Source: Sulfurimonas sp.
GTDB taxonomy: Bacteria > Campylobacterota > Campylobacteria > Campylobacterales > Sulfurimonadaceae
DNA length: 38,517 bases
Direction: 5' to 3'
Assembly (NCBI GenBank): GCA_027063745.1
Contig: JAMORG010000052.1
Coordinates: forward strand, 1 to 38,517
The notes below the pieces were generated by a model, which was given only the letters and a program-made list of their open reading frames with translations, was not told the DNA's origin and ran no database searches. Positions within the stretch are counted from its first letter, which is position 1. The number at the start of each line of letters is the position of its first letter. A program made the position numbers and the translations under genes. Positions 1-3,812 of the stretch are shown here, piece after piece.

Positions 1-1039
1 TAAAGTCAACAACACCCATAACATCACTACCTTGTGATGCTTGCATTAAGTAACGACCAATCTCTTTACCTTCATTTTCAAAACCGTCATGTAGGATTTT
101 ACCAATATTTGGAATATCACCAACAATCGGATAGTTAGGTTTAGAGTAGTCTACAATGTAAACATGCCCTGCATCTTTAAGTGCAAAAGCGATATATGGT
201 CCATATGGAGTATCATATACACCAGCAACACGACTTGAGCCGATATCACCATCCATATTGATTACACTTGAAGTAGGGTAAACTTTAAGAGGTTCTAGTG
301 TCATAGCATCCATAAGCACTGCACCACCTGGTACGTAGTTACCAGCCATAAGGTATTTACCATCTGGTGAAACTGCTAGACCACGTGACTCAGATCCAAC
401 TTGACACTCAGCAATTTTTTGTTGTCCCGGAGTATTAAGGTCAAACATAGTTACAAGACCTGAACGGCTGATAGAGTAAGCATAACGAGGTTGACGTTTA
501 TTTGTAACTGTTACGTGAACTGCAAAACCAGCAGGGTGGCGAGAAAGTACTTTTCCAGTTGTTCCGTCAAGAAAAACAACACGAGCTGCATCACGTTCTG
601 TAACGAAACAGATATCAGTATTGTGTTTTACATCGGCAGGATGAGGATATTCTTTTAAGAACTTCATTCTGTCATTAAGTTTTTTCCAACCTTTTTTGAC
701 ATTCTCTAAAGTAAGAACTTCAACTTTCTTACCTTTGAAATGTTGTAGATAATCAACCATTTTATCTGCGTCAGCTTTTGTGAATTTTTCTTTAAACTGT
801 GGCATTGCAGTACCAGGACGACCATTTAAGATAGTCTCAGCCAGCATATATGCATTTTTCTTTGCAATGACTTTTGGACGTAAGTCAGATCCAACACCAC
901 CTTCATGGTTTGGTCCGTGACATCCTTGACACTCTTTTTCAAAAACTTTTTCCACATTCATACTTGATGTACCAGCAAAAAGACCTGAACTAACAACTGC
1001 TAATGCCGCAACTGACATTACTAATTTATTTAATCTCAT
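1..1039 (-). CDS. nirS: Cytochrome cd1-type protein (nitrite reductase NirS-like or NirN-like), partial, runs off left edge
   Basis: Minus-strand translation from 1039 gives MRLNKLVMSVAALAVVSSGLFAGTSSMNVEKVFEKECQGCHGPNHEGG..., i.e. signal peptide plus CxxCH heme c, then d1-propeller-like VGSESRGLAVSPDGKYLMAGNYVPGGAVLMDAMTLEPLKVYP and GKILHDG. RBS GAAGGAG upstream. Not in the ORF track because it is truncated. Confidence 0.8.
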   Translation of the reverse strand, partial: MRLNKLVMSVAALAVVSSGLFAGTSSMNVEKVFEKECQGCHGPNHEGGVGSDLRPKVIAKKNAYMLAETILNGRPGTAMPQFKEKFTKADADKMVDYLQHFKGKKVEVLTLENVKKGWKKLNDRMKFLKEYPHPADVKHNTDICFVTERDAARVVFLDGTTGKVLSRHPAGFAVHVTVTNKRQPRYAYSISRSGLVTMFDLNTPGQQKIAECQVGSESRGLAVSPDGKYLMAGNYVPGGAVLMDAMTLEPLKVYPTSSVINMDGDIGSSRVAGVYDTPYGPYIAFALKDAGHVYIVDYSKPNYPIVGDIPNIGKILHDGFENEGKEIGRYLMQASQGSDVMGVVDF

Positions 1040-1061
1040 TTTATTTCTCCTTCAATAAGAT

Positions 1062-1090
1062 AAAAAAAAAGGCCATATAGGCCTTTTTTT
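1062..1090 (-). terminator. Intrinsic terminator-like hairpin (A7-GGCC-TATAT-GGCC-T9 on the minus strand)
   Basis: Plus strand reads aaaaaaaaaggccatataggccttttttt: a symmetric stem with 5-nt loop and a T run on either strand. Confidence 0.8.
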
Positions 1091-1241
1091 AATTCTCTTC
1101 TTCTAAACGCTTTTTCTCTTGGAAATAGATCCAAATCATAGGTAAAATAATTACCGTATGCAGAAAGAGTGTTAATGTTAATGGCCCTTGATTGAGCCAG
1201 CCGAAAAAGCTAGGCACAACATCTGTAAATGGTTCAAACAT
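1089..1241 (-). CDS. 50-aa single-TM microprotein between norB and the cd1 gene
   Basis: Translation MFEPFTDVVPSFFGWLNQGPLTLTLFLHTVIILPMIWIYFQEKKRLEEEN*, with an RBS-like GATAAGGAGAGATAAA upstream. Lies in the operon gap and is below the ORF-track length cutoff. Confidence 0.7.
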   Translation of the reverse strand: MFEPFTDVVPSFFGWLNQGPLTLTLFLHTVIILPMIWIYFQEKKRLEEEN

Positions 1242-1252
1242 TTTATCTCTCC

Positions 1253-2692
1253 TTATCTTTCATGAACTGGATTTTTTCCAGTTGTAAGTAAATCTTTAGC
1301 AAGGAAAATGAAACCTGTGAATGTTACAACACCCATAACAAGTCTCCAATCCATTGCCTGTGTAAACCACAGACCACTTTGTCCATCAAAGTATGCAGCC
1401 CATGTTGCACCCATTTGTGCACGAGATACAAGAACCTGTACATAGCCTGCAATTGTAAGTGCAACTGTCATACCGACAACACCACCAGTAATCATACTTA
1501 CAGCCCAGATAGAAGCTTTTGTATGTTTCATTACTTTAATGCCGTTTGTACCCTGTACAGCTATATACATCATACCAATAAGAATTGTAGCATATGCTCC
1601 AAAGAAAGCCAAGTGCCCGTGAGCCGATGTAAACTGTGTACCGTGAGTATAAAGGTTTACTTGTGGCAGTGTATGGAAGAATCCCCAGATACCAGCACCC
1701 AAGAAGTTACCAAATGCATTAAGAACAAACCATGTAAATGCTGGTTTATTATTGATAACTGATTTAACATTATCTTCATCTGTATGCTCATTCGCCATTT
1801 CAGCACCTTGAGTTTTACCCCAGTCATAAAGTACATGGATAAACATAGCAACAAGTGGTAATGGTTCTAGTGCACTAAATAGCGCTCCAATTTCCCACCA
1901 GTATTCAGGTGTACCGATCCAGAAGTAGTGGTGACCAAGACCTAAGATACCTGAACCAAAGAGCATTGCAACTTCGATCCATAACCACATCTCAACTACT
2001 TTACGGTGTGCACCGATCATAGTAATAAGTCCGTATGCGGCAATTGCTCCAACATAAACTTCCCATGTAGCTTCAACCCATAAGTGGATTACCCACCACC
2101 ACCAGTATTGATCAATAGAGATATTATCTGTAAAGAACATACCAGCTAAATAAAGACCGGCAAAAGCAATCATATCTGCCATAAGTACAGTTACAATTCC
2201 TGTTTGTCTGCCTTTGATTCCTGTTAGGAAAAGGTTTGCAACAAAACCGAGTGCTACAACAACAATACCCCAGTCAGCCCAGCGTGGCGCTTCAATATAT
2301 TCACGACCTTCTGTAATAAACCAGATAGTTGTTTCATCGGCTGGTCCTACTTGAATAAATAGGTACACAAGTACAACTACAACAATTGCAGCTGCAAATA
2401 TCCAAAATAATAATTTACCAATTTTAATACCAATTGTTTCTATGCCTGTTTCATCAGGTAGTAACCAGTAAACAGCACCGAACATTGCAAAAACCATCCA
2501 TACAACAAGTGCATTGATGTGTAAAATTCTGGCAATTGAAAAGTCAAGAATTCCATATAAAAAACCTGGCATTACATATTGGATTGCAGCAACGAGACCA
2601 AATAGTAGTTGAGCACCAAATAAAATGGCAGCAAAGGTAAAGTACCACGTTGCCAACTGTTTTGATTCTGATGTTAAATGATTATTTGCCAT
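1253..2692 (-). CDS. norB: Nitric oxide reductase catalytic subunit NorB (heme-copper oxidase superfamily)
   Basis: 479 aa, multi-TM, HLWVEATWEVYVGAI and HHYFWIGTPEYW motifs; adjacent to norC. Confidence 0.92.
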   Translation of the reverse strand: MANNHLTSESKQLATWYFTFAAILFGAQLLFGLVAAIQYVMPGFLYGILDFSIARILHINALVVWMVFAMFGAVYWLLPDETGIETIGIKIGKLLFWIFAAAIVVVVLVYLFIQVGPADETTIWFITEGREYIEAPRWADWGIVVVALGFVANLFLTGIKGRQTGIVTVLMADMIAFAGLYLAGMFFTDNISIDQYWWWWVIHLWVEATWEVYVGAIAAYGLITMIGAHRKVVEMWLWIEVAMLFGSGILGLGHHYFWIGTPEYWWEIGALFSALEPLPLVAMFIHVLYDWGKTQGAEMANEHTDEDNVKSVINNKPAFTWFVLNAFGNFLGAGIWGFFHTLPQVNLYTHGTQFTSAHGHLAFFGAYATILIGMMYIAVQGTNGIKVMKHTKASIWAVSMITGGVVGMTVALTIAGYVQVLVSRAQMGATWAAYFDGQSGLWFTQAMDWRLVMGVVTFTGFIFLAKDLLTTGKNPVHER

Positions 2693-3368
2693 TTACTGCT
2701 CCTTGCATACGTCCAAAGTTTCTAGGGAAACCATTTGTATCTATTGATGACATATGTTTTAAAAATGCAACCAAACCAATTGCTTCTTCTTTTGTAATAC
2801 CAAGATCTGGCATCATACGAGCATGTGTTGCAAATTGATCTGGATGTTGTAAAAATTCAGCCATTGCTTCTTCTTTTGTCTCTTTTCCAGTCAATGCTTG
2901 CATAGCTCCATCTGGACCCCATGCAGGATCAAGCCAAGCTTTTGTTAAGTCTGGTGCATAATATGCGCCATTTCCAAGTAGTGTATGGCAATCCATACAG
3001 TTTTTTGCTTGAGAAGCCAATTTCCCTAAGTGAAGTAGTTTCCCCGCTTCCTCTTCACTCCAGTCATCACGACCGAAAAATTTCTCTTTTTCTTGAAAGA
3101 GTGAGTTTCCTTCTCCGTCATTTCCACCGATTACCGGTACTTCATGACCACGTTTTGAACTCATTTCATAACTAATCTTGTAGTTTATTACTGTCGGTCC
3201 TGGAACCCGTTTAACTACACCATCTTTTAGATCTTGATCATTCCCCATTGCAATTTGTGCTGACGTGTCAAACGTAAGCCAAATTAACAGTACTGATGCA
3301 AAACCTGTAACCCATGTTGCTGACCGACGCCAGAAACGATTGTCACTCCAAACAGATTTATTTGCCAC
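2682..3368 (-). CDS. norC: Nitric oxide reductase cytochrome c subunit NorC
   Basis: N-terminal TM, CMDCHTLLGNGAYYAPDLTKAW heme c motif; overlaps norB start by 11 nt. Confidence 0.92.
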   Translation of the reverse strand: MANKSVWSDNRFWRRSATWVTGFASVLLIWLTFDTSAQIAMGNDQDLKDGVVKRVPGPTVINYKISYEMSSKRGHEVPVIGGNDGEGNSLFQEKEKFFGRDDWSEEEAGKLLHLGKLASQAKNCMDCHTLLGNGAYYAPDLTKAWLDPAWGPDGAMQALTGKETKEEAMAEFLQHPDQFATHARMMPDLGITKEEAIGLVAFLKHMSSIDTNGFPRNFGRMQGAVNGK

Positions 3369-3401: not shown

Positions 3402-3728
3402 TCAGTGTTCATTTTCTTCATGAACCTGATGTTGCATATAGTAAACTGCAAATGGAAGTAAAAAAAGACCAATTGCAGCGACAACTAAAGCTTTAGCAGT
3501 AAAATCGCCAACATGAATCAAACTACCCATAAGGTAGAGACAATAGGCAGTCAATGCCCAAAACGAATAGGCTACAACCATAGCCCACGGTTTTAAGAGT
3601 TTGACCTTTACTGCTGTATATATACCAACATAAACCCCTCCAAAAACTAACACAAGTGCAGACGATACAAAGATAGGTAAAAAATCATTTACTGCTATCT
3701 CCGGTCTGATGACTGATGGGTCTATCAT
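3402..3728 (-). CDS. Small (108 aa) three-TM membrane protein, first gene of the nor operon
   Basis: Hydrophobic segments VFVSSALVLVFGG-like, MVVAYSFWALTAYCLYLMG and ALVVAAIGLFLLPFAVYY; His/Glu-rich C-terminus HQVHEENEH; RBS AAGGGAG upstream. Confidence 0.75.
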   Translation of the reverse strand: MIDPSVIRPEIAVNDFLPIFVSSALVLVFGGVYVGIYTAVKVKLLKPWAMVVAYSFWALTAYCLYLMGSLIHVGDFTAKALVVAAIGLFLLPFAVYYMQHQVHEENEH

Positions 3729-3772: not shown

Positions 3773-3812
3773 TTTATAAGTTTTAGCAAGAAAATATATT
3801 GATATAAATCAA
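3773..3812 (-). promoter_or_regulatory. FNR/CRP-family class II promoter: TTGAT-N4-ATCAA palindrome plus TATAAA -10
   Basis: Perfect palindrome TTGATATAAATCAA at 3799-3812 (TTGATTTATATCAA on the minus strand). A minus-strand TATAAA at 3778-3773 lies about 30 bp from the site centre, 45 bp upstream of the 3728 start codon. Confidence 0.7.

Follow-up and report, generated by a model that had tools for sequence, protein, structure and literature searches.

Denitrifiers must keep nitric oxide (NO) low, and a locus in which the genes for NO consumption lie upstream of a gene for NO production, on the same strand and with a terminator-like hairpin at the boundary, raises the question of how the producing gene is transcribed, and how its output is set against that of the consuming genes. 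Such a locus was analyzed in a Sulfurimonas-like MAG (1.6 Mb, 82% complete), in a window that comprises the whole 38,517-nucleotide stretch of DNA under study. A sequence-only reading of this DNA had proposed translation-coupled attenuation, in which a ribosome at the stop codon of a small ORF (sORF) would cover one arm of the hairpin, so that sORF translation could set the expression of the downstream gene relative to norCB. In this study, we followed the junction between the consuming and the producing genes through the family of the MAG and into other families of Campylobacterota, looking at the hairpin itself, the sORF in front of it, and the promoter elements from which the downstream gene could be transcribed.

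Gene order of the unit

The unit lies on the minus strand throughout, in the order 108-aa membrane ORF, norC, norB, 50-aa ORF, hairpin, nirS, with an 11-nt overlap between norC and norB. Its features, from upstream to downstream, are as follows.

3799 to 3812: box of the Crp/Fnr-family type, minus-strand sequence TTGATTTATATCAA (sequence match)
3402 to 3728, minus strand: ORF of a 108-aa membrane protein, first in the unit (ORF list)
2682 to 3368, minus strand: norC, nitric oxide reductase cytochrome c subunit (Pfam cytochrome c, weak NorB_cytochrome_c-like match)
1253 to 2692, minus strand: norB of "type A", nitric oxide reductase catalytic subunit (Pfam COX1; distribution)
1089 to 1241, minus strand: sORF, a 50-aa single-helix protein, stop codon TAA at 1091-1089 (conservation across families)
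1064 to 1090, minus strand: terminator-like hairpin (G-C core at 1071-1083, A/T arms)
1062 to 1070, minus strand: nine-T tract (sequence; T-tract score 5.94)
1040 to 1061, minus strand: nirS leader segment with Shine-Dalgarno AAGGAG at 1052-1047 (sequence; alignment of junctions)
2 to 1039, minus strand: 5' part of a nirS-like cytochrome cd1 gene (Pfam Cytochrom_D1, 4e-43)

The 108-aa ORF (3402-3728) had no family match in Pfam or NCBIfam, and the membrane protein at the head of the unit is kept in relatives. A second, distant norB is present in the MAG (G000:C66:25852-27177, locus L246); it is 41% identical, and its type is found elsewhere without the sORF.

The cd1 gene starts with the ATG at 1039 and is broken off at the contig end, with its remainder on contig C114. 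Positions 1-127 of the window are 127 identical bases shared with the end of that contig, within nirS; the contig start inside nirS is an assembly break and not a gene end. In a full-length relative (L186, 546 aa), the active-site histidines of LHDG and PHPG align with those of Paracoccus NirS (1dy7), and through this relative the gene shows what marks a NirS, i.e. a c-domain with a d1 propeller and both distal active-site histidines. By E-value, the best PDB match is a different cd1 protein (6rtd), which lacks the first active-site histidine (LHDG); we named the gene nirS-like because both NirS histidines align in the relative, even though 6rtd is the top match.

The hairpin in the MAG

The stem occupies 1090-1064 (AAAAAAAGGCC-TATAT-GGCCTTTTTTT), with 11 perfect pairs, four of them G-C, and its 5' arm starts at the second base of the sORF stop codon TAA (1091-1089). 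The G-C core, GGCC-TATAT-GGCC at 1083-1071, is followed by nine T's at 1070-1062, seven of which are paired in the full stem, and 22 nt (1061-1040), AAGGAG included, lead from the T-run to the cd1 ATG. All coordinates of the terminator-like hairpin that had been described as overlapping the sORF stop 22 nt before cd1 were verified, the stem at 1090-1064 sharing bases with the TAA at 1091-1089. The predicted fold of the RNA from 1040 to 1120 has an energy of -18.8 kcal/mol (z = -3.2), which was matched by one of 200 shuffles.

As a background for terminators we used 237,691 bases of the MAG, on both strands. The hairpin has a d'Aubenton-Carafa-type score of 38.5, the maximum of this genome sample, where the next site reaches 27.2 and two sites in all score 20 or more, and, of the sites scoring at least 0, it alone has both a stop codon no more than 40 nt upstream and a gene on the same strand no more than 60 nt downstream. 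This top score and the unique intergenic placement in 237 kb put the hairpin far beyond chance. Its G-C stem stands directly before a U-tract, as in intrinsic terminators, and because of the T-tract the MAG element resembles a full intrinsic terminator. In a search of Rfam all matches fell far below gathering scores, and a known RNA family was rejected.

The small ORF

The sORF was found in 88 of 200 genomes of the family, as well as in Campylobacterota of several further families. An alignment of 14 sORF sequences contains 16 invariant columns, among them H28, a histidine inside the predicted helix. In 87 of the 88 genomes, presence of the sORF coincides with that of type A norB (identity of about 65% and above); the exceptions to the sORF-norB association are G167, with a decayed sORF copy and norB lost, and G163, where norB is cut by the contig end. 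The sORF is missing from all 35 genomes whose only norB is of the other type (about 41% identity), and type A norB is present in none of the 13 genomes that have nirS but not the sORF. No match was found in Pfam, NCBIfam or the PDB, where a profile search gave meaningless weak hits. A leader peptide was rejected for the sORF, which is a conserved protein that follows type A norB in several families.

Most likely, the sORF encodes a small partner for the type A NO reductase. In Thermus, a small gene, that of NorH, stands after norCB, and the sORF is likewise the gene of a small membrane protein directly after norB; the likeness to NorH is one of position and not a claim of homology.

Transcription of nirS

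The box at 3799-3812 precedes the 108-aa ORF by 71-84 nt, and is the sole perfect TTGATNNNNATCAA match in the window. Of 41 loci, 34 have such a box, with one mismatch at most, in the 700 nt upstream of norC, most often some 450 nt ahead of the gene, and none of the Crp/Fnr type was found in the sORF-nirS gaps of 87 junctions. Where nirS stands alone and enough sequence is available upstream, a perfect box is present in 11 of 12 cases, at -71 to -127. A natural deletion in G167 (locus L044) has taken away norCB along with most of the sORF, of which a remnant with three stops is left, and has kept the box, the hairpin and nirS.

A promoter of nirS within the gap was rejected, given the 87 gaps free of a Crp/Fnr box and sigma-70-like matches in the hairpin region that do not exceed shuffles. 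The box before the unit, its absence from the gaps, the boxes that stand-alone nirS genes have of their own, and the deletion in G167 together argue that nirS relies on upstream transcripts. By this pattern, nirS in the operon is most likely transcribed by read-through from upstream, through the hairpin, and norC, norB, the sORF and nirS would be co-transcribed. The view that the cd1 gene depends on read-through or on an upstream promoter, put forward in the sequence-only reading, is thereby supported. Our literature search on Sulfurimonas nor/nir transcripts returned nothing at the operon level.

At least three Crp-type helix-turn-helix proteins score above the Pfam cut-off in the MAG, one of them encoded on C114, and a 2019 review reports no FNR or NarP orthologues in Campylobacterota (PMC6682613).

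The other end of nirS also has a hairpin in 35 of 40 relatives, as it does in the MAG; the stem, of -8 kcal/mol or better, lies no more than 25 nt from the stop codon. The MAG copy (L245, contig C114 near 17680) consists of TTTTCTCCCTTTGGGGAGAAAA plus CCTTTTTT directly after the stop. Between nirS and the next downstream gene, a further box with one mismatch at most is present in 14 of 47 loci.

The junction in relatives

Conservation was assessed on the 67 junctions of the family of the MAG that have a sORF-nirS gap of 75 nt or less, with a stem threshold of -8 kcal/mol. All 67 gaps hold a stem of this stability or better (median -13.5), compared with 9 of 30 comparable co-directional gaps elsewhere (median -3.75), and seven of those nine comparison stems are the hairpin immediately after nirS. 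The stem sequences at the junction fall into at least 31 groups that are less than 60% alike. In other families, 12 of 20 junctions reach -8 or better. Covariation could be scored in 11 independent close pairs, a sparse sample, where three double changes keep pairing and three break it. The junction element is conserved as a structure and not as a terminator.

Departures from the common arrangement were seen in one species (L021), where the operon is present with a 17-nt gap and without the hairpin, and in one genus (L011, L013, L014 and L026), where 180-195 nt with extra inverted repeats separate the sORF from nirS; these long gaps (~190 nt) may hold a separate promoter.

The position of the stem is tied more closely to nirS than to the sORF, with 28 ± 2.5 nt from stem to nirS ATG vs 6 ± 5.7 nt from sORF stop to stem across the 67 junctions. 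Once similar stems are collapsed, the difference in register is modest (SD 3.3 on the ATG side vs 5.4 on the stop side, p = 0.04). Such steadiness, along with hairpins that flank nirS on both sides, could mean that the hairpin serves the nirS message, as a 5' structure on a putative processed RNA that blocks 5' decay or frees the ribosome-binding site. A leader block with the Shine-Dalgarno sequence is right-aligned to the ATG in the 67 junctions, however, and the steady spacing is partly due to this conserved ribosome-binding segment, so we consider a role in the nirS message unlikely.

The element could also be a plain leaky terminator that makes a fixed cut in nirS transcription, irrespective of translation, and so yields more Nor than Nir. 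The form in the MAG is canonical, 11 family loci (MAG included) score above 0 as terminators, and the distant genome L226 has GCGGCCGTTCGGCCGCTTTTTT at the junction. Most relatives nevertheless lack the T-tract, among them the closest ones found (~78-88% identical in DNA sequence where the junction could be matched), which have ordinary stems, and a ribosome at the adjoining stop should weaken the terminator (PMC4824070). A fixed leak as the whole explanation has a low probability in our estimate, comparable to that of a role in the nirS message.

Somewhat less probable again is drift, by which the T-tract form would be a neutral state of one lineage without effect on nirS. It fits the finding that, of the 87 junctions read, a single MAG has this form, and is opposed by the rarity of such terminators in the MAG genome and by the persistence of the stem across the family.

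Translation-coupled attenuation would have the arrival of a ribosome at the sORF stop decide on nirS transcription, and thus have sORF translation set NirS against Nor. What speaks for it is that the top terminator of the sampled genome has its 5' arm in a stop codon, that 73% of the stems in the family start no more than 12 nt from the stop, and that there is a precedent in E. coli, where a stop codon moved to 5 bp before tR2 lowered termination efficiency from ~90% to <10%, and uncoupling of translation restored it (PMC4824070). By analogy with tR2, the earlier argument that a ribosome at this stop could block the hairpin is plausible. The evolved switch built upon it is not borne out by the relatives, since a T-run of five or more follows the stem in one other junction among the 67 (L048), and just four stems, that of the MAG included, extend into the stop codon; conservation of this overlap among related genomes had been named as a check. 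Leader-peptide attenuation goes with a regulatory, non-conserved ORF and a conserved overlap of the hairpin with the ORF end, whereas the sORF is a conserved, norB-linked protein and the overlap is an exception. Neither an antiterminator nor a pause element was found, and no known signal alters sORF translation. Attenuation through sORF translation is, on balance, improbable, a little more so than drift.

Discussion

The conserved feature of these loci is a hairpin boundary between NO-consuming and NO-producing genes, an element of a kind already known. The explanation that we favor, with a confidence slightly better than even, is that of a conserved intercistronic hairpin that marks the norCB/nirS boundary and serves RNA-end protection and/or partial termination, having taken on the form of a terminator in the MAG. 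A single unit through nirS would be driven from a promoter of the Crp/Fnr type in front of the 108-aa ORF, and the stem-loop would divide norC, norB and the sORF from nirS within one transcript. The hairpin would guard the norCB-sORF message at its 3' end and/or halt a fraction of polymerases, and nirS RNA, reached only by read-through, would be set apart from, and probably below, norCB. Protective hairpins without a U-tract at operon boundaries are an established mechanism that gives parts of a transcript different rates of decay (PMC5927463). As in that mechanism, a stable stem is found where two cistrons meet in 67 of 67 gaps of up to 75 nt, within what we infer to be a single unit, and freedom from a U-tract, a trait of protective hairpins, holds for nearly all relatives and not for the MAG.

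In the MAG, a ribosome at the stop would hinder folding because the stop codon lies within the 5' arm; one that follows closely would usually prevent the hairpin from folding in time, leaving read-through as the default and termination mainly for occasions when translation lags. Read-through should be normal under coupled translation, by analogy, because the G-C core begins five bases past the stop, like that of the suppressed E. coli construct. Such read-through would be a default state and not evidence of regulation; suppression by a ribosome at the stop is a matter of physical plausibility, and not evidence of its use as a cellular control.

Among known systems, the protective hairpins of puf and malEFG (E. 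coli survey, PMC5927463) come close, as they likewise have a stable stem where genes adjoin within an operon, usually without a U-tract, and share with our loci the occurrence of hairpins in series and neighboring genes plausibly needed in different amounts. The norCB/nirS boundary differs in lying right after a small ORF and in the U-tract of its MAG copy. In pyrBI-type attenuation (PMC4824070), a terminator likewise overlaps the end of a translated ORF, and ribosome position could block the hairpin; the mid-operon ORF described here is, by contrast, a conserved protein and no leader peptide at an operon start, its overlap with the hairpin is not conserved, and no pause signal is known. The tR2 construct with a nearby stop in E. 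coli (PMC4824070) has a G-C core at the same five-base distance and terminated at <10%, whereas the MAG hairpin is natural, lies between cistrons, is A/T-armed with only four G-C pairs, and belongs to a different organism.

As a speculation that we hold to be the least probable of the ideas considered here, the fast-evolving hairpin might be a stoichiometry element that Campylobacterota maintain between the NO-consuming and NO-producing enzymes behind a common Crp/Fnr-type promoter, and that in some lineages, the MAG included, has become a terminator gated by sORF translation, with nirS transcribed only while Nor is translated. Since NO must stay low, it would be a sensible safety rule for a cell to make the NO-consuming enzyme earlier, and in greater amount, than the NO-producing one. 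Taken together, these results draw attention to a small protein in the NO reductase unit that is conserved and still unnamed, and the conserved element at the norCB/nirS boundary offers a concrete site for testing how the Nor:Nir ratio is set in Campylobacterota.
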